From assembly GCA_016840305.1 (NCBI GenBank), contig JAEOSP010000103.1:1-18863 (forward strand): DNA of 18,863 nucleotides, given 5' to 3'. The stretch is from Candidatus Hodarchaeota archaeon. Lineage in GTDB: Archaea > Asgardarchaeota > Heimdallarchaeia > Hodarchaeales > Hodarchaeaceae. Shown here in pieces: positions 3,186 through 18,146 of the stretch. Under the pieces are notes generated by a model that was not told the DNA's origin, searched no databases, and saw only the letters and a list, made by a program, of their open reading frames with translations. Position 1 is the stretch's first letter; every line of letters begins with the position of its first letter. The position numbers and the translations under genes are program-made.

Positions 3186-3220
3186 AAAAAAAAGAGGGGA
3201 AGAGAGAAGTTACTTTCTCT
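3186..3220 (-). terminator. Hairpin plus T8 after the surface-protein gene
   Basis: On the minus strand AGAGAA (3220-3215) pairs with TTCTCT (3208-3203). The loop AGTAAC contains the TAA stop codon (3212-3210). A C-rich spacer and eight Ts (3193-3186) follow. Confidence 0.55.
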
Positions 3221-6200
3221 TACGGAACCACAGTAATAATAATCCCATTACTGTTAATGAGAATAACCAGTCAAAACCAGGAGTTAGAGCGGGAACATCA
3301 TCAGTCGTATTGAGACCATTTTGTATTTCAAAGAGATTCGATGTCAGTTCAATTGTATCAATTCCGTCTGTGACCTTGATTACGAATTTGTAATTAGGAC
3401 CATCGAGATATGCAGTACTATCAAAAGAATAGCTAGTTGAGGTGAGACTGGATGCTAAAACATCTTCAGAAGCATCAGGATTTACAAGAATGACTTGGAA
3501 AGTCAAACTATCCCCATCTGCATCAGTCGCAGTCCATGATAATTCATATACACCGTTAATAACATTTGAAACTGGGTTCAAAGTTCCTTCAGGTGCTCGA
3601 TTCCCAACTTGAATTTTTAAGCGGATTATCAAAGGATTCATATCAAGTCCTATTACACCTATTACGATGACTTGCAGACCCGCTGAAACACCAGATGTAC
3701 CATATTCAAAGCTCAGATCTTGGGTAGCTCCTTGCGCCCATGAAACAAATGTTAGTGTTGGGTAGGTTACACTAAGATCTGTCACTGTAAATATTGTTCC
3801 ACTATCTATCATTCCTAGCCCCAAGTTCTGTAAGGAAAAACTAACAGTTACAACATCACCTATATCGACATAGCTAGGCAAATCAACACTGGTAGCCTCT
3901 ACTGCATGTGAAAACAACGGGGGATTTACTGGTATGAAATGGATATCTAATCCAGAAAAAGTTGAAATAACTAATCTATAGCGGAGAATTTGAGGGTAAG
4001 AGCTGGGATAATTATAATCTATAACCTCTGTACTATACTCAAGAATGTGACCTGTTTTTGATAATGCTCGGCCACGTAGAATTAATTGCTGAGATCCAAT
4101 ATCTCCAGCTTCGTCAGTTGTAGGAAGAATATCAACCATGTATTCTCCTTTAGAAGGAGAAGCAATCAAGACAGTTTGAGTATCTGCTAGCATACCAGAA
4201 TAAGTAGCACCGCCAGATTCCTCGGTTCCTGTTGTATAGTTGTATCCTGCTTCTAAAGTTCCGTTCCATACACAAAGAACTGCTCCATTTTCAGATTCAA
4301 GACTGATTTCTAAGGAATCAGTGGGAATATCACCATACAACACTTGTTGGGAAAGTATAGCTTGCACCGTGGCAAAAATCGGAGGTTCATCCCAAGAATT
4401 TCCAGACCAATACGCACTAGTAGGAGTATCTATGACCATATGTGTGTTTAAATACTGTGTTATCGCGTCGTACCACCATTGATCTTGTTCACGACCTGCC
4501 ATCAGGAAGGCTTTGCTTGCGGAGAGGTACCAATAATATTCAAAAGACTTTCCAGAATTTGGGTTCTGACCTGCAATTTCATCAATAGAATGAGATCCGA
4601 TCCAGTCAAGAGCAGTGGTTATATTCGCATTTGAAGGATTTACACCAGAAAGGAATAATCCCCAGATGCCTGCAGCGGTCATACTACCATAACTACCGCC
4701 ACCTTGGTCTCGCCAATCCTGAGTCGATGGAGTATATGTGAAGCCACCATCAGCTATAAACTGAGGAGTTACATCATCCCAGTAACCTCCACGGCAACGT
4801 TCAACAAATAATACCACTTTATCCCAGAAAACAGGGTCATTATAACCATAAGACGCTAATGCAAGGATTACCCATTGAGAAACAGATAAATCTGAACTCA
4901 TATGATCGTCCCCATATCGCCAGCCACCATACCATGGTTCACTAGGATTAACACCCCATGTCTCATCATTTTGTGTAGCAACCAACCACTCAACTGCTTC
5001 ATCAATGAGATCATTTAGTGGTCCATCATACGAGGGTAATGTAGCATTATATGCAATCAAGGCAATTGTTGCCATAGCAGATTCGTAACTTGCGTGTCCT
5101 GATTGACGAATGACTTTTCCAGGTACATTAGGATCATTATCATCCTCAAAAGCATCACGGAGGAAATTAATTCCATCTGTGACAACTGTGTCATGAGCAA
5201 GTCCTGCTTGAATGAAACTTAAAGTTGCTAGAGCGGTCATACCTGCAGAAGGTTGTCCATCATAATATTCCCAAGCTCCATAATCCCAATTGCTTGGATT
5301 ACCTAGTACCTGTTTATTACGTAACCAGTTCAGTCCTTTAGCAATTGTACTGTCAGGAACTGGAGGGGTTCCAGGTTGGATAGTGATAGGTAAAATTGAG
5401 GTAGCTAAATTAAAGATAACATCAAAAGCTTCAACTTTTAGATTGATTGGACCAGTAAGATTATCGGGAGGATACCAGACAAAGGAAAATTCACTTAATG
5501 CACCGATACCTGATCCCCCAGTATTTTCAAATGGAGAATAAGTAAATAATAGATTAGCTCCATTATAAATACTAAATTGTGTCACAAAAGTTTCATCAAC
5601 TATCGATCCTCTGAATGGAATTCCATAATATTGTTGGTAAGTATCACCAGGTAAAGGATTGTTGTAAGTAATTAAGGGAGGTGAACTATCGACAATATAA
5701 TCCAATGATACTCTTAGCAATGAAGCAGGAAAAACCTCATCAGGTTGATCAGGATATTCTATTGTTACAAACCAAGGTGAAAGGTTTTTTCCAAGAGGTG
5801 CGAGTATGTTTTGTGTCTCGGTATTCATATTCCAATCATTCCAAGTGATATAGCTCTGGAACTGGCCCATGTTCCATAAATCAATCCAGCGTCCATAACC
5901 ATCGATGATTGTAATATGGAATTGCGGTGTCCATTGATTTATTGGTTCTGTTCTGTTAATTTGTAATTTCAAAATGGAATCCAAGGTTTCTGGATAGAGA
6001 ATAAAGGAAACCATATCACCTTCGTTCAAGCTACCGAAATCATAGATATTAGTAATAGAAGTTGTTGGAGAGGCATGAGTGACATTAATCGAATAAGTAG
6101 GATATGTTTCTGACATGTAAGAAACATTATGATCATATAGCCATTCGTTGTATCCAGTTAGTTGTGCCATTGTAAATTCTTTGAATTTAATTACGGGTGT

Positions 6201-7085
6201 ATTATTCTCGAATCCACCATATTGATAAAAACCAGATAAATATTCACTTGGAATTTTCAAAGTTAGGTCATTAGTTGTAGAAGAGGATAGATTGAAGAAT
6301 TCTTCAAAAGTGGCAATGGGAAAATCTGTTGAATTTGTTAGCATGAGGTGGCAGTAATAATCTTCTACATTACCTCCATCATGATCAAATGAGTTAAACG
6401 TGAAGTCAATCTCTAAATCATCGCCTACTAATCCTGCAGTATTTACCGTTAGTTCTGATGTATCTATCAATGGATCGAAGGTAAATATATCATACTGACC
6501 TGAAATTCTGAAGAGGGGATATTCATCATATTCCCATCTATCATCTACCATCCAAGAAGGACTTCCCCAGTCTGCAAGGGATGTAGATACTATTTCGTAA
6601 GGACCACCCATTTGGAATGCTCGCAAATAGGAGCAATTAAAGGCAACAGTAACATTCTGTACACCAATGGAAAGTTGTTCAGGGTTACTAACTCCTTGGA
6701 TTGAATTACCCTCTTCATAATGAAATCCGAATTCGCCATCGCTAACACGACGTAAAAAATTGGGGTCGAAAAGTTCAGCTCTCACTAAATACTCGTAAAT
6801 TGTTGTTTCTGTGATATTAACTTCAACATCAAGTAGGAGCGTATTATAAAGAAAATCTGAATCTGTATCATTAAATCCGAGGAAAAAATAGCGTCCTGTT
6901 AAATGCCCACGCGAGTCAAATGCATTGACTCCTGATTTGATGTTGGGAAGGTTATTAGCAATAGAAGGCTCTGATAAAGTATTTAAAAAGGTATTTCCAT
7001 TATTTCTAACTCCTGATAGTACTAAAAAAGAAAAAGAACTAATCAAGAACGTTATAATTATAAAATATCCTATAATTTTTTTCAT
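3210..7085 (-). CDS. Large surface protein with squalene-cyclase-like toroid, Ig-like domains and PGF-type C-terminal anchor
   Basis: 1291 residues from the ATG at 7085. Order of parts: signal peptide (MKKIIGYFIIITFLISS..., about 1-27); a long beta-rich region with many N-glycosylation sequons (about 30-465); an Ig-like domain (about 467-572, starting 'DSSPPLITYNNPLPGDT'); an alpha/alpha toroid of the prenyltransferase/squalene-oxidase-repeat class (about 577-912) with repeated 'GLNWLRNKQ', 'AVEWLVATQND', 'GGWRYGDDHMSSDLSVSQW', 'GGGSYGSMTAAGIWGL' units; a CARDB-like beta domain (about 1062-1160); an FN3/cadherin-like domain (about 1160-1254, 'SWTATDADGDSLTF'); and a tail with T-P-G-F, a hydrophobic helix and R-K-R-K at the very end, as in archaeal PGF-CTERM sorting signals. 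No GCGEQ thioester motif or DxDD cyclase acid motif is visible, so the toroid is probably a binding scaffold. The frame is open to an ATG at 7139, but 7085 has GGTGAT 7 bases upstream and starts a proper signal peptide. Confidence 0.85.
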   Translation of the reverse strand: MKKIIGYFIIITFLISSFSFLVLSGVRNNGNTFLNTLSEPSIANNLPNIKSGVNAFDSRGHLTGRYFFLGFNDTDSDFLYNTLLLDVEVNITETTIYEYLVRAELFDPNFLRRVSDGEFGFHYEEGNSIQGVSNPEQLSIGVQNVTVAFNCSYLRAFQMGGPYEIVSTSLADWGSPSWMVDDRWEYDEYPLFRISGQYDIFTFDPLIDTSELTVNTAGLVGDDLEIDFTFNSFDHDGGNVEDYYCHLMLTNSTDFPIATFEEFFNLSSSTTNDLTLKIPSEYLSGFYQYGGFENNTPVIKFKEFTMAQLTGYNEWLYDHNVSYMSETYPTYSINVTHASPTTSITNIYDFGSLNEGDMVSFILYPETLDSILKLQINRTEPINQWTPQFHITIIDGYGRWIDLWNMGQFQSYITWNDWNMNTETQNILAPLGKNLSPWFVTIEYPDQPDEVFPASLLRVSLDYIVDSSPPLITYNNPLPGDTYQQYYGIPFRGSIVDETFVTQFSIYNGANLLFTYSPFENTGGSGIGALSEFSFVWYPPDNLTGPINLKVEAFDVIFNLATSILPITIQPGTPPVPDSTIAKGLNWLRNKQVLGNPSNWDYGAWEYYDGQPSAGMTALATLSFIQAGLAHDTVVTDGINFLRDAFEDDNDPNVPGKVIRQSGHASYESAMATIALIAYNATLPSYDGPLNDLIDEAVEWLVATQNDETWGVNPSEPWYGGWRYGDDHMSSDLSVSQWVILALASYGYNDPVFWDKVVLFVERCRGGYWDDVTPQFIADGGFTYTPSTQDWRDQGGGSYGSMTAAGIWGLFLSGVNPSNANITTALDWIGSHSIDEIAGQNPNSGKSFEYYWYLSASKAFLMAGREQDQWWYDAITQYLNTHMVIDTPTSAYWSGNSWDEPPIFATVQAILSQQVLYGDIPTDSLEISLESENGAVLCVWNGTLEAGYNYTTGTEESGGATYSGMLADTQTVLIASPSKGEYMVDILPTTDEAGDIGSQQLILRGRALSKTGHILEYSTEVIDYNYPSSYPQILRYRLVISTFSGLDIHFIPVNPPLFSHAVEATSVDLPSYVDIGDVVTVSFSLQNLGLGMIDSGTIFTVTDLSVTYPTLTFVSWAQGATQDLSFEYGTSGVSAGLQVIVIGVIGLDMNPLIIRLKIQVGNRAPEGTLNPVSNVINGVYELSWTATDADGDSLTFQVILVNPDASEDVLASSLTSTSYSFDSTAYLDGPNYKFVIKVTDGIDTIELTSNLFEIQNGLNTTDDVPALTPGFDWLFSLTVMGLLLLWFRKRK

Positions 7086-7092
7086 ATCAAAT

Positions 7093-7098
7093 ATCACC
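7093..7098 (-). promoter_or_regulatory. Shine-Dalgarno site deciding the start at 7085
   Basis: GGTGAT on the minus strand, 7 bases before ATG 7085. It matches the archaeal anti-Shine-Dalgarno core and argues against the longer start at 7139. Confidence 0.6.
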
Positions 7099-7295
7099 AA
7101 CACATAAGGTTTGAAACTAGTTTTTGGGAAGACTCTCATGAAATAAAATCCTCATGCTCTCCAAATCTAGTCTATTGTGTATAATGCTATATGAGAGAGC
7201 ACTCCTCCGATAAGAACCCCTAACAAATATTCAAATGAAAATCAAATAAATTTTGTCGGTTGAAAGCGAAGAAAAATATCGATATTTGAGGACGA

Positions 7296-12580: not shown

Positions 12581-15415
12581 ATGAGTCAATCTAATGCGCA
12601 CAAACCTCGCGTTCATACTCAAACCGTTGAAAATCTTAAAAGAGAATTCAACACTGATCTGAAGAGAGGTTTATCAAACGAAGAAGCCAAAAAACGCCTA
12701 GAAAAATATGGAATGAATGAGCTAATTTCAGCAGAAACGATTACTCCTCTGAAAATGTTCTTACTACAGTTTAAAGATTTTATTGTATTTTTATTGCTTG
12801 GAGCGGCTTTTGTTTCAATAATTTTTCAAGATTGGATTGAAGCTCTCATAATTATTGTAATTGTTATGTTGAATGCAATAATGGGTTTTGTTCAGGAGTA
12901 TAGAGCAGAATCAGCATTAGAGAAACTCAAAGAGCTCACAGGTGATGATACCTTAGTTATCAGAGATGGGGTTGAAACAAGAATTGACACACGGGATTTA
13001 GTGCCAGGAGACATTTTACTTATGTATGAAGGGGAAACTATTGCAGCAGATGCTCGAATTTTTGAAGCAAGTAGACTGAGAATAGAGGAAGGGTTACTTA
13101 CGGGAGAATCAGTTCCTGTTGATAAAATGCATGAACCATTGATGGATGAATATCTTCCTATTGCTGAGCGTAAGAATATTGTTTATATGGGAACTACTAC
13201 TGTAAAAGGTCGTGGAAAAGCCATCATCACTGGGACGGGAATGAATACTGAAATGGGAGAAATTGCTAAATCAACATCTGAAACAGTAGAACAAGATACA
13301 CCTCTACAAATACAACTTTCAAAGCTAGGGAAAATATTAGGAGGGTTAGTTATTATCGTTGTCTTTTTTGTATTGATAGCTCAGATTTTACAAGCTGAAG
13401 ATACTTTCCTACAAATGCTCGAAAATGCCTTATCCCGTCGGGATGAAGAGCTAATTCATATTGTTGAAGCTGCCCTTGCATTGGCAGTTTCTGCTGTACC
13501 AGAAGGATTAGCTGCTGCAATAACGCTAACTTTTGCGATTGGAGTTCAAAGAATGGTTAAGAAAAATGCCATAATCAGAAAGCTACCAGCAGTAGAAACA
13601 TTAGGATCTGTAGAGGTAATATGCACTGATAAAACTGGTACCTTAACCCAGAATAAGATGACAGTTCAAAAGTTATGGACTCCCGAATTAGGATATACTG
13701 ATGTAACTGGAACTGGCTACTTACCTAAAGGCAACTTCATTAGCACAAAGGATAACAAAAAAATTAATGTCAAAGATTACAAGGATGTATACCAATTACT
13801 TAAGGCTGCATCATTATGTAATACCGCAACAATCAACTATTCTTATGAAAAAAGCGAATGGACATGCGAAGGAGATCCAACAGAAGGAGCATTGATAGTT
13901 ACTGCAATGAAAGCCGCTCTTCATAATCGATGGGAAGAAGGATACGAACTCAAAAAGCAAGGAGAAATTTTCTTTGATTCAGATCGTAAGCGAATGTCAA
14001 TGGTTTTTAGTAGAAAAAGACCAAATATTGAGGAAACCTGGGCTTTTATGAAGGGAAGTCCAGGGATTGTCCTAAACCTATGTACACATGTGTTAATGGG
14101 TGAAAAAAGGATCCCTTTAACTGATGAAATTCGCAAACAAATTATCGATAATAATTCCCAACTGGCTAGTAAGGCCTTCAGGGTGCTAGGGATTGTACAG
14201 AAGGAACTTTCTAATAATCTGGTAGAATTTACAGAGGAGTCAGTGGAAAATGAGATGACTTTCATAGGCCTAATTGCAATGATTGATCCACCACGTCTTG
14301 AAGTCGAAGAAGCAATTCGAAAATGTAAAGATGCAGGCATTCGTATTATTATGATTACTGGAGATCAACAAGACACCGCATTAGCAATAGCTCAGGCGCT
14401 TGATCTGAAACCGTATGAAGATACAGTCTATCTTGCGCATACTTCATCAGAGTTAGAAGCAATGAATGATGAGGAATTCATTAAAGTATTAAAGGATCTG
14501 GATGTATGTGCAAGAGCCTCACCCAATATTAAGAAAAGAATAGTAGAAACATTGCAAGATGAATTTGGGCTTGTAGTAGCAATGACAGGAGATGGAGTAA
14601 ACGATGCTCCAGCCCTTAAAAAAGCAGATATTGGAATTGCAATGGGAATAACAGGTACCGATGTCGCTCGTGAAGCAAGTGATATGGTACTCATGGATGA
14701 TAATTTCGCTACCATTGTATCAGCAGTAGAAGAAGGCCGAAATATTTATGCGAATATGAAGAAATTTATTAGATATCTTCTCTCCTCAAATTTCGATGAA
14801 ATTCTAGTTGTTTTCACAGCTACTGTGATACTGGCACTTCCTTCCCCTTATCTTGTGCTGAGTATTTTATGGATTAATTTATTAACAGATGGTTTACCAG
14901 CGTTAGCTTTGTCAGTTGACCCTGGAGATCCCACCATAATGAAGAAAAAACCACGTGGAAAGCAGAGTAACATGTTGAATGAAATATTAGTCTTTTCACT
15001 CGTAGCAGGGATTATATCTTTCCTCGCGACTATGATTTTTTTTATGTCCTATGGTGGCGACTTTACTGGAGAAAATTTGAAAATTGCACGTACTCTTGCT
15101 TTAACAGTTTCTGTGATCTTTGAACTGTTTCAAGTATTCGTTTCTAAAGCAGATGATAAAAGTGTATGGGTATCTAATCCATTTAACAATCTTTACTTGG
15201 TTGGGGCAGTTGCTATGGCATTCATCCTTCACCTATTTATTGTATATGTTGAACCATTAGCAAATATCTTTGAATTAATTCCCATAACATTTGGTCAATG
15301 GGTACTGATTTTTGTGGTGGTTATAATAGGTATTATCATATTAGATGCTGTAAAGGTGCTGCAAGCGAAAATAATTAACCAATCGCACAATAGAAGTGTT
15401 TTTCGCTCTGAATGA
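12581..15415 (+). CDS. P-type Ca2+-transporting ATPase (type IIA, SERCA-like)
   Basis: 944 residues, complete. It pumps cations across the membrane using ATP. The order is normal: N-terminal cation-ATPase domain, M1-M2, actuator domain with T174-G-E-S, M3-M4 with 'AVSAVPEGL' (P307, E308), phosphorylation site D350-K-T-G-T-L-T, nucleotide-binding domain with 'KGSPG' (491-495), hinge 'TGDGVNDAP' (669-677), then M5-M10. Residues that bind Ca2+ in SERCA are kept at matching places: E308 in M4, N737 and E740 in M5 (SSNFDE), N766, T769 and D770 in M6 (NLLTD), and E848 in M8 (VIFELF). That points to a two-site Ca2+ pump and not a Na+/K+- or Mg2+-type one, though transport is not proven. The start ATG has AAGGA about 12 bases upstream. 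It stands alone on its strand between the divergent dehydrogenase and the histone gene. Confidence 0.95.
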   Translation: MSQSNAHKPRVHTQTVENLKREFNTDLKRGLSNEEAKKRLEKYGMNELISAETITPLKMFLLQFKDFIVFLLLGAAFVSIIFQDWIEALIIIVIVMLNAIMGFVQEYRAESALEKLKELTGDDTLVIRDGVETRIDTRDLVPGDILLMYEGETIAADARIFEASRLRIEEGLLTGESVPVDKMHEPLMDEYLPIAERKNIVYMGTTTVKGRGKAIITGTGMNTEMGEIAKSTSETVEQDTPLQIQLSKLGKILGGLVIIVVFFVLIAQILQAEDTFLQMLENALSRRDEELIHIVEAALALAVSAVPEGLAAAITLTFAIGVQRMVKKNAIIRKLPAVETLGSVEVICTDKTGTLTQNKMTVQKLWTPELGYTDVTGTGYLPKGNFISTKDNKKINVKDYKDVYQLLKAASLCNTATINYSYEKSEWTCEGDPTEGALIVTAMKAALHNRWEEGYELKKQGEIFFDSDRKRMSMVFSRKRPNIEETWAFMKGSPGIVLNLCTHVLMGEKRIPLTDEIRKQIIDNNSQLASKAFRVLGIVQKELSNNLVEFTEESVENEMTFIGLIAMIDPPRLEVEEAIRKCKDAGIRIIMITGDQQDTALAIAQALDLKPYEDTVYLAHTSSELEAMNDEEFIKVLKDLDVCARASPNIKKRIVETLQDEFGLVVAMTGDGVNDAPALKKADIGIAMGITGTDVAREASDMVLMDDNFATIVSAVEEGRNIYANMKKFIRYLLSSNFDEILVVFTATVILALPSPYLVLSILWINLLTDGLPALALSVDPGDPTIMKKKPRGKQSNMLNEILVFSLVAGIISFLATMIFFMSYGGDFTGENLKIARTLALTVSVIFELFQVFVSKADDKSVWVSNPFNNLYLVGAVAMAFILHLFIVYVEPLANIFELIPITFGQWVLIFVVVIIGIIILDAVKVLQAKIINQSHNRSVFRSE

Positions 15416-15700: not shown

Positions 15701-15730
15701 GACGAATCAAAAATCTAAAATACGATAAAA

Positions 15731-15735
15731 GGTGA
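15731..15735 (+). promoter_or_regulatory. Strong Shine-Dalgarno site of the histone gene
   Basis: GGTGA, 7 bases before the ATG at 15743, is a canonical archaeal ribosome-binding site and fits a highly expressed gene. Confidence 0.65.
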
Positions 15736-15742
15736 AAAGAAA

Positions 15743-16168
15743 ATGGGTGTTTTTGCTAAAGCAAGATCAGAGGCAATAATGAAGAGTGCTGGTGCAGAAC
15801 GTATTTCTGCTAAAGCTCTCGAACGAATGGATGAATTAGTAGCTGAATTTGGTCAGAACGTATCTAAAGCAGCTATTGAGTTTGCTAAAGCAGCTGGCCG
15901 TAAAACGGTTCAAGGAGCTGACGTTAAATTAGCTGTTTCAAAAATTGGAGAACCTAAGAGCTCTCCTACGGGAAAATCCCGTGCTTTTGCGAAAGCACGA
16001 GTTGAACGACTTATCAGAGATGCAGGCGCAGATAGGGTAGCTTCAGATGCAGTTGACAAATTAAATACAGATCTTGAAAATTACTGCTATACGCTAGCCA
16101 AATCTGCAATCGAAATTGCACGACACGCCAAACGTAAGACCCTTAAAGATACAGATATTATGCCGTAA
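15743..16168 (+). CDS. Archaeal histone doublet (two fused histone folds)
   Basis: 141 residues with two HMf-like histone folds in one chain: fold 1 about 4-66, linker 67-80 (SKIGEPKSSPTGKS), fold 2 about 81-141. Fold 1 has 'SAGAERIS' and 'GRKTVQGADVKLAV'; fold 2 has 'DAGADRVA' and 'KRKTLKDTDI'. The DNA-binding R-K-T loop is kept in both (53-55 and 131-133), as is the Arg of the AER/ADR loop. The folds differ at the tetramer interface: the His matching HMfB His49 is H128 in fold 2 but Ala50 in fold 1, while the Asp matching Asp59 is in both (D60, D138). Fold 2 stops right after 'DIMP', so its last helix is missing. Single archaeal histones are about 67 residues and pair as dimers; this chain would be a built-in pseudodimer. 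It has its own promoter, a strong ribosome site and a terminator. Confidence 0.95.
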   Translation: MGVFAKARSEAIMKSAGAERISAKALERMDELVAEFGQNVSKAAIEFAKAAGRKTVQGADVKLAVSKIGEPKSSPTGKSRAFAKARVERLIRDAGADRVASDAVDKLNTDLENYCYTLAKSAIEIARHAKRKTLKDTDIMP

Positions 16169-16196
16169 GCATAGTATTCTTTCCCCTCTTTTTTTT
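16154..16196 (+). terminator. Intrinsic terminator with the histone stop codon in the loop
   Basis: GATATTATGC (16154-16163) pairs with GCATAGTATT (16169-16178): 10 pairs, two of them G-T wobbles. The loop CGTAA carries the TAA stop (16166-16168). A C/T-rich spacer and T8 (16189-16196) follow. Confidence 0.7.
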
Positions 16197-16229: not shown

Positions 16230-18146
16230 ATGAACAATGATTTTGGCCGAAAAACAAAGGATCTAGGCCAATATTATACTCCCTCAAGTATAGTAGAATT
16301 TATTGTTAATAATACGATTGGTTCTCTGCTTAAATCATCTGATAGAACATCTTTTGATGAGATAACAATACTTGACCCATCAGTTGGTAAGGGAGCTTTC
16401 TTAATAGGTGCGAAAAATTACTTAGAAGCCTATCAAATACAAAAAAATCCAGAAATAGAGAATGGTTCACAAACTAAAATAGAAATCGTTGTAAATAACT
16501 TATATGGGATTGATATTGATCTAAAACAGGTAAAAGATACCCGTTCTGCCCTCGGTCATCCAGAATTTATTGGAAATATTAAACAATTTGATGCACTTGT
16601 TCCAGCTCCAGACATAAGCGAGAATGTTAGTGATATAACCCCCCTTTACGCTCTTCGTCTGCGTTATAAAAAAGCTTACATTGAAAATGACACACATATT
16701 ATCAATGAAACTAAAAATCAAATACTAGAATTAGAGAGGATAATTAGAAAAAATACTCTAGAGACATTCAACGGGGATAGGGGCAAGGTATTCCCCCTTG
16801 CTTGGGAAGAGATTTTTCCTGAAACTGGAGGGAAATTCAACGTGATCATCGGTAATCCACCTTGGGGAGCTGATATTACACGAATCAAGTATCAGGTATC
16901 TTACTTAAAATCAGCCACATCACAGATGGACTCTTGGAGTTTATTTATTGAAAGAAGCGTACTTGGATTACGAAAAGGTGGATTAATTGGTTTTGTTGTA
17001 CCGAATACACTGCTCTTGAATCCTAATTATTCTCAGATACGTTCAATTCTTCTTTCAACATGTCAAATAACACATCTAGTTAATCTTGGAGAAGGTATAT
17101 TTCCAGGTGTTTCACAGCCAGCTATGATCCTCATAGCTAGAAAAACACGTAATGAGCCTTCTCACAAAATCTCTATAATACCTAGTATTACTAAGCAGGT
17201 TAGAGAAGAAATATTGGCTGATATGCCTAATTTTACATTTAGTTCTCCTCTATCATGTCTTCAAACTCGTTTTAGTAATAATTTTAATAAAGAATTCGAT
17301 ATTTTCTCATTAGAGTTAGACGATTTTGTAAAAATTGTTGAAAAAGACCTTTACTCAGACCAGAAACAAGTTTGCAATCTTGGAACACTTGTTAAGAATG
17401 GTAGAGGAGTCGAGATAGGGAAAAAGGGAAAAATTGTGCAGTGCCCCCTATGCAAATGTTGGAGTTCACCGCCTCTGATAGAGCGGAAATGCAGAACTTT
17501 CAATTGTGGTTACAACCTATCTTCAATGGACAAAGAAATCGAAATTGTACATGATTCAATGATAGATCCTTTAATTGATCGACCATTCCTTGTTGGATAT
17601 CAAATACAACGATACTTCACTCATCGAGAGAAGTACATTTCGGTTCAATATACAGGTATTAATTATAAAACCCCAGAATTGTATCAAAGTCCAAAATTAC
17701 TAGTAAGAAAAACGGGGAAAGGGATGAATTGGGTTATCGACTATCAAAATAGATGGGTATCACAGGTAGTGTATATTTTCCAGCTAAAGGAAAATTTAAA
17801 AGAAATATATAAATCAATATCGTTGGAATACTTATTAGGTATTCTGAATTCTCAGATGATGAAGAATTACGTTATTTCAAAGGTTTTAGATCCTAATCGT
17901 ACTGAATTTCCTCATTTTGTTCAGAAATCCATACTACAACTGCCGATAAAAATTCCTCTTTCAAAAGAAGAAATTGTGCTAAGCAAAATGATCCATAATA
18001 TTGCTTCTAAACTTCAACTTTTATATCAACAACAACATGAGGAGGGTTCAACTACGAAAAGAAAAAGTAAGCTGCAGGATCAAATCCAAAAAAATGAAGA
18101 AGAAATGGAAAAGGTTGTAACAACAATTTATTCAATTATCAGCTAA
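16230..18146 (+). CDS. N6-adenine DNA methyltransferase (TaqI/Eco57I-like) with zinc-ribbon insertion
   Basis: 638 residues. The N-terminal catalytic domain carries the gamma-class amino-methyltransferase motifs: motif X 'GQYYTP' (13-18), motif I 'DPSVGKGAF' (49-57, a variant of DPxxGxGxF), motif II 'YGIDID' (92-97), 'QFDAL' (119-123) and catalytic motif IV 'NPPW' (209-212). The C-terminal part is a TaqI-like target-recognition domain ('LLVRKTGKGMNWVIDYQNRWVSQ' in two pieces around 491-512). A Cys cluster C405-x2-C408 ... C421-x4-C426 within that half looks like a zinc ribbon, then a C-terminal Lys/Glu-rich coil (605-630). The chain begins directly at motif X, so the N-terminal nuclease of type IIG enzymes is absent, and no endonuclease gene is next to it. 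It is thus either a solitary methyltransferase or one whose partner lies outside. It starts 61 bases after the histone stop with no clear Shine-Dalgarno, perhaps leaderless. Confidence 0.88.
   Translation: MNNDFGRKTKDLGQYYTPSSIVEFIVNNTIGSLLKSSDRTSFDEITILDPSVGKGAFLIGAKNYLEAYQIQKNPEIENGSQTKIEIVVNNLYGIDIDLKQVKDTRSALGHPEFIGNIKQFDALVPAPDISENVSDITPLYALRLRYKKAYIENDTHIINETKNQILELERIIRKNTLETFNGDRGKVFPLAWEEIFPETGGKFNVIIGNPPWGADITRIKYQVSYLKSATSQMDSWSLFIERSVLGLRKGGLIGFVVPNTLLLNPNYSQIRSILLSTCQITHLVNLGEGIFPGVSQPAMILIARKTRNEPSHKISIIPSITKQVREEILADMPNFTFSSPLSCLQTRFSNNFNKEFDIFSLELDDFVKIVEKDLYSDQKQVCNLGTLVKNGRGVEIGKKGKIVQCPLCKCWSSPPLIERKCRTFNCGYNLSSMDKEIEIVHDSMIDPLIDRPFLVGYQIQRYFTHREKYISVQYTGINYKTPELYQSPKLLVRKTGKGMNWVIDYQNRWVSQVVYIFQLKENLKEIYKSISLEYLLGILNSQMMKNYVISKVLDPNRTEFPHFVQKSILQLPIKIPLSKEEIVLSKMIHNIASKLQLLYQQQHEEGSTTKRKSKLQDQIQKNEEEMEKVVTTIYSIIS

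Follow-up and report, generated by a model that had tools for sequence, protein, structure and literature searches.

We describe a histone doublet gene of Candidatus Hodarchaeota archaeon, located in contig JAEOSP010000103.1 of assembly GCA_016840305.1; the complete stretch analysed, of 18,863 nucleotides, is hereafter called the window. The two histone folds of its product are incomplete in different ways, as fold 1 lacks the histidine found at position 49 of HMfB and fold 2 lacks most of its last helix, and this asymmetry is genuine and fixed within the sampled family, being neither chance nor error. Our tentative proposal is that the doublet may bind DNA as a ready-made pair of folds and either weaken histone stacks or bring them to an end. 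How the open-ended stacks of archaea became the closed particles of eukaryotes is an open question, and the Hodarchaeales are an obvious group in which to seek an answer; the Hodarchaeota are the group thought closest to eukaryotes, and the doublet may set where their histone stacks end. With its two dissimilar and incomplete joining faces, the conserved doublet raises the question of whether a single variant could set the length or direction of a stack before there were octamers. The gene and the parts of its product, numbered throughout against HMfB, are as follows:

15743 to 16168, plus strand: histone doublet gene, an ATG to TAA open frame with 36 relatives (product P0001, 141 aa)
15743 to 15949, plus strand: fold 1, residues 1-69, with Ala50 at HMfB position 49, Asp60 at 59 and Leu63 at 62 (alignment, AlphaFold2)
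15950 to 15982, plus strand: linker, residues 70-80, EPKSSPTGKSR (sequence, alignment)
15983 to 16165, plus strand: fold 2, residues 81-141, with His128 at position 49, Asp138 at 59 and the C-end IMP (alignment, AlphaFold2)

A preliminary description, made from the letters of the window alone, had claimed two histone folds fused end to end, and this is borne out by the 141-aa frame, by two matched stretches to both the NCBIfam archaeal histone model NF043032 (126.4 bits, cut-off 50) and PF00808 (90.4 bits, cut-off 21.4), and by the pseudodimer predicted by AlphaFold2. The structure prediction, which that description had recommended, was run on the monomer as a single chain, fold 1 serving as the internal control. 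The best model displayed a mean predicted local distance difference test score of 91.1 and a predicted template modelling score of 0.85 (the former spanning 75.7-91.1 over five models), and the chain is confidently predicted to fold as a pseudodimer. The helices of fold 1 were placed at residues 6-15, 23-50 and 58-68, the last one having 11 residues, and those of fold 2 at 84-93 and 101-128, followed by a last helix of 3 residues, about one turn. The chain ends in KDTDIMP, three residues past Asp138 (the equivalent of Asp59), the rest of helix 3 being missing. The context of position 49 reads AKAAGRKT in fold 1 (Ala50) and ARHAKRKT in fold 2 (His128). Linker residues Pro71, Lys72, Pro75, Thr76 and Lys78, together with the preceding Gly69, are invariant across the alignment, and the isoelectric point (pI) is 9.71 in the window and 9.5-10.1 over the 37 aligned rows.

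These rows comprise the window and 36 database relatives, most of them metagenome-derived, which are 73-94% identical; one row (P0037) is N-terminally partial and is left out of the per-fold residue counts given out of 36. Position 49 of fold 1 is Ala in 17 rows, Thr in 12, Ser in 7 and Asn in 1, with His in 0/37, whereas position 49 of fold 2 is His in all 37, so that the Ala and His noted in the window extend to the family as absence and presence of the histidine, respectively. All 37 chains stop 3-4 residues after the Asp59 equivalent, with KDTD(I/L/F) and two further residues (three in one row), and at position 62 the second fold has Pro in 34/36 rows, with Met and Val in one row each; the loss of most of the last helix of fold 2, also part of the preliminary description, is thereby confirmed. 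In every row, the fold that lacks the His and the fold that lacks the helix are different ones. That description had named as contrary evidence any relatives whose two folds both carry the His and whose last helix is complete, and there were none (0/36). An assembly error or premature stop was ruled out, as 36/36 relatives share the same ending. Furthermore, selection on the doublet looks strongly purifying from the comparison of nine gene copies: synonymous divergence (dS) was saturated in 26 of their 36 pairs; L001 and L002 displayed a nonsynonymous divergence (dN) of 0.036 against a dS of 0.909, and the near-identical pair L003/L005 (dN 0.009, dS 0.020) says little. Median dN was lower in fold 2 (0.114) than in fold 1 (0.202), and therefore the short-ended fold is the better kept of the two and not a decaying one.

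Stacking of archaeal histones has been related to the dimer-dimer joint positions 46, 49, 59 and 62, to Gly16 in the loop, and to the inter-turn pairs 30-61, 34-65 and 14-48, according to the passages available of PMC6136690. In the window's doublet, three of the four joint positions are kept on each face. Fold 1 retains Asp59, a hydrophobic residue at 62 (36/36), Phe or Leu at 46 (29/36) and a full helix 3, with His49 missing in 36/36; fold 2 retains 46, 49 and 59, with Leu62 and most of helix 3 gone. Hence, the intact interface of hypernucleosome-forming histones is found on neither face, position 49 being lost in fold 1 and position 62 being Pro in 34/36 of the second folds. Conversely, the small loop residue of hypernucleosome formers is present, as position 16 is Gly in both folds in 36/36 rows. 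Of the inter-turn pairs, fold 1 preserves 30-61 (Glu/Asp paired to an invariant Lys) but not 14-48, and fold 2 preserves 14-48 (Asp/Glu paired to an invariant Arg) but not 30-61. Regarding DNA contacts, Arg19, Lys53 and Thr54 are present in both folds, and position 10 is basic in fold 2 only, save for one Lys in fold 1. The idea that the doublet stacks through one face only thus stands in part: the asymmetry on which it was built is conserved, but the His-bearing fold 2 face has lost Leu62 and most of helix 3 while the His-less fold 1 face keeps both, so that neither is canonical. Either both faces would be weakened, or the two would be complementary and join heterotypically.

We tentatively favour the first of these options, although we give it slightly less than even odds, and what we say of doublet oligomers is inference. 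The basic doublet, to date known from Hodarchaeales, would fold as a pre-paired pseudodimer and probably bind DNA in the manner of an archaeal histone dimer. Because neither of its ends has a complete dimer-dimer surface, it would act as a weak joint or an end unit among the ordinary one-fold histones of the cell. Its entry into a stack would be by a single face, that of the His-bearing fold 2 being the likeliest, or else that of fold 1 with its full last helix; further growth would be disfavoured, and hypernucleosomes may in this way be shortened or partitioned.

Several observations weigh against this proposal. The Ala, Thr and Ser found at position 49 of fold 1 are small and neutral, and the Thr, Ser or Asn of 20/37 rows are neither charged nor hydrophobic, unlike the residues of the proposed capstone histones discussed below. 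Asp59 may be retained for the fold itself, through the salt bridge with Arg52 given in PMC6136690, and not necessarily for the interface. Neither fold has retained the pair 34-65. In addition, residues 46 and 62 of fold 1 covary: of the 37 rows, 17 combine Phe46 with Leu, Val or Ile at 62, 13 combine Leu46 with Leu62, and 7 combine Ala46 with Phe62. This is a hint that something still packs against the fold 1 face, though few evolutionary events may lie behind it.

This covariation is also one of the arguments for the second option, which we consider unlikely, namely that the faces are split and matching: fold 1, with its full last helix, Asp59 and Leu62, would dock on fold 2 of the next doublet, with its His49 and Asp59. 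A single His-Asp bridge and a single last helix would then serve each joint, and the resulting stack would be polar and grow one way. The placement of the two losses on opposite folds in 37/37 rows and the retention of some stacking residues by each fold agree with such an arrangement, and the eukaryotic H4-H2B joint, where the His is supplied by H4 alone, would be a precedent for it. However, the complementarity may be a coincidence of two losses, and we know of no measured archaeal example of a four-helix bundle that lacks one of its two copies of helix 3. If true, the split joint would give archaea their own version of the H4-H2B joint, one that arose in the Asgard order nearest to eukaryotes, and doublets, alone or with one-fold partners, would assemble one way, making stacks of defined polarity or length possible. 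A stand-alone DNA bender or local regulator, binding about 30 bp as a single pseudodimer at particular sites without stacking, as has been proposed for haloarchaeal HpyA, is in our view similarly improbable. The alteration of both faces and the loss of pair 34-65 from both folds would be expected of it, and haloarchaeal doublets with the same His pattern (HpyA) are thought to be condition-specific regulators and not compactors, according to the passages available of PMC10128011; nevertheless, haloarchaeal doublets are acidic (pI 4.4-4.7 in the 8 checked) while the Hodarchaeal one is basic, and Gly16 and two of the three stacking pairs, kept in one fold or the other, would be needless for a lone bender.

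A full-length doublet was found in 8/58 genomes of the class and 8/227 of the Asgard phylum, with one copy each (E up to 1e-25); many of the 227 genomes are incomplete, and the absences are soft. All eight loci lie on Hodarchaeota/Heimdallarchaeota records and are 74-80% identical over their full length. Among viral contigs, nine stretches matched a pattern and none encoded a relative, and the two matches in plasmids were both annotated genes of one-fold size. The survey of single-fold partners that the preliminary description had suggested yielded 3-8 distinct one-fold histones in each of the eight doublet genomes; the matched histone stretches numbered 6-11 per genome, both doublet halves counted. 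Together with those of six further genomes of the class with similar histones (G044-G049), 63 distinct one-fold sequences were compared, and position 49 was His in 48, Asn in 8 and Tyr in 7. Counted from Asp59, the C-end has 8 residues in 40/63, compared with 11 in HMfB and 4 in fold 2; all 63 have at least 8, and 0/63 are as short as fold 2. The local one-fold histones are themselves shorter than HMfB, and therefore fold 2 is at least 4 residues shorter than its kin. These data bear on a further alternative, that of an ordinary stack builder in which the losses are tolerated, normal hypernucleosomes form and the fusion merely fixes stoichiometry. Three of four interface positions per fold and the loop Gly16 are kept, as it would predict, and AlphaFold3 has been used to predict an open tetramer for an acidic haloarchaeal doublet, by authors who advise scepticism towards predictions of this kind (PMC13260811, section 12). 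Given that the losses are conserved over 37 rows and that no one-fold histone is equally short at its C-end, we regard this alternative as very unlikely.

Diversity was also observed among the one-fold histones themselves. Six of them (L019, L077, L079, L080, L083 and L091) display lysine-rich N-terminal tails and Asn at position 49; in these, tail and changed joint go together. Seven others (L084, L086, L087, L088, L093, L095 and L096) form a group (support 82/66) of the ELASYAGKKT type, with Tyr at position 49, which we take to be the residue at that place in eukaryotic H2B. Phe occupies position 49 of the best histone match in each of nine further genomes of the class (L054-L062, G050-G058). 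Finally, in L098 and L099 the histone fold lies close to the N-terminus of a longer protein, of 371 and 365 aa, respectively (open frames of 365-381 aa); Roadblock/LC7-histone fusions have been reported for Hodarchaeales in passages of PMC10919886.

The origin of the fusion was addressed with trees of 62 columns, from which five long-branch rows were dropped and in which the doublets were thinned to 15 or 10 of 37; for the tree with haloarchaeal folds, two of nine chosen haloarchaeal rows were left out, as they were not split by motif. Hodarchaeal fold 1 and fold 2 each formed their own clade (100/99). Constraining them to unite gave a log-likelihood 6.6 above that of the free tree and an approximately unbiased test value (p-AU) of 0.701, with a bootstrap that had not settled over these 62 columns; their union is thus not rejected, and the doublet may stem either from a recent internal duplication or from two old paralogs that were fused. 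Conversely, a common clade of Hodarchaeal and haloarchaeal doublet folds was disfavoured, being 27.5 log-likelihood units worse (p-AU 0.029, modest for 62 columns). The group that holds the Hodarchaeal folds has 69 rows (96/77), among them 47 one-fold histones of the class and not a single haloarchaeal fold; its two remaining rows are, by subtraction, most probably the folds of Methanopyrus kandleri HMk, which lie on very long branches. Since a single clade of Hodarchaeal and haloarchaeal folds is disfavoured, the pattern of His in fold 2 only probably arose twice, independently in haloarchaea and Hodarchaeales. That the first-fold His is missing from two separately placed doublet lineages suggests that, once two folds are fused, one face tends to be freed from its joining role.

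The surroundings of the gene in the window include the following features:

12581 to 15415, plus strand: P-type (Ca-type) ATPase, neighbour (family match)
15727 to 15736, plus strand: ribosome-binding-like stretch AAAAGGTGAA (read by eye)
16189 to 16196, plus strand: run of eight T 3' of the stop codon, a possible archaeal terminator (read by eye)
16230 to 18146, plus strand: Eco57I/TaqI-type adenine DNA methyltransferase of 638 aa, the next gene downstream (family match)

By eye, AAAAGGTGAAAA precedes the start codon of the doublet in the window and in 8/8 relatives, and T runs with a length of at least 6 follow the gene in the 7/7 relatives with sequence there. The methyltransferase is the next downstream gene in the same proportion (7/7 relatives with sequence there: L001-L005, L007 and L008), and it is probably not part of the doublet mechanism. 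A single functional unit of doublet and methyltransferase, an idea arising from this adjacency, was not adopted, as the T runs lie between both genes; the block may simply be stable, because the upstream ATPase (7/8 relatives, one of which, L004, has an extra gene between) and a downstream permease (6/6 relatives whose sequence reaches that far) are conserved too. Genome G047 has the methyltransferase ortholog on a contig that apparently ends just upstream, and the doublet was not found in it; its case therefore speaks neither for nor against such a unit. The methyltransferase diverges fast (39-50% identity) alongside the slow-evolving doublet; its family matches include no recognised nuclease domain, and a Cys-rich insert is seen by eye. 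Of the PADLOC families listed for it (25 of 59), those of type II methyltransferases match best, and mad2, PglX and DrmMI match more weakly. The ATPase and the acyl-CoA dehydrogenase of the window share 79-94% identity with their counterparts at L002/L003, in line with its Hodarchaeal origin. Elsewhere in the window, a protein of 1309 aa (3210 to 7139, minus strand), by eye secreted and with a C-terminal membrane segment, has zero Pfam/NCBIfam matches, and a glutaredoxin-like gene (1009 to 1664) overlaps a gene weakly matching the FtrB double-selenoprotein family (45.7 bits, below the cut-off of 160).

Doublets of Hodarchaeales have been in print since 2021, in a figure legend naming the B3-Heim clade (PMC8775648, Warnecke and colleagues); in 2024, the doublet was described as having a high pI, with nothing known of its function (PMC10919886, Warnecke and colleagues), and a 2026 review classes Asgard doublets as M. 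kandleri-type (PMC13088155). In the published text passages covered, figures and supplements lying outside that scope, no description of the His/helix asymmetry of the Hodarchaeales doublet was found; going by these passages, the existence of the doublet is already published and the asymmetry would be the new point. The doublet described here belongs to the same family: L003 comes from the B3-Heim genome of the legend and is 77% identical over residues 1-141, and the high pI stated in 2024 matches the 9.71 of the window.

Compared with other known systems, HMk of M. kandleri (1f1e) carries, by alignment, Ala and Glu in place of His at position 49 of its two folds, unlike the Hodarchaeal doublet. 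Haloarchaeal doublets of the HpyA/HstA type resemble it in having His in the second fold only (119/119 in fold 2 and 1/119 in fold 1), in a sample (rows P0056-P0175) formed by the best 120 of 1698 matches, 119 of them parsed, that leans towards this pattern since the query itself has His in fold 2 only; they differ in being acidic and in that, by sequence, fold 1 and not fold 2 has the altered helix 3 region. The alpha3-truncated histones, as described in the passages available of PMC11390915, have a helix 3 of 3-4 residues, comparable to the 3 of doublet fold 2 and not to the 11 of fold 1; their helix 2 is shorter by 4-5 residues, whereas that of the doublet is full, with 28 residues, in both folds. 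Lastly, capping has been proposed for the capstone histones of Methanobacteriales from simulations and residue 49, in the part of PMC7776873 consulted. These are single folds with a negatively charged or hydrophobic residue at 49, where doublet fold 1 has Ala/Thr/Ser/Asn, and share with the doublet the loss of His49 in a conserved paralog found beside ordinary histones.
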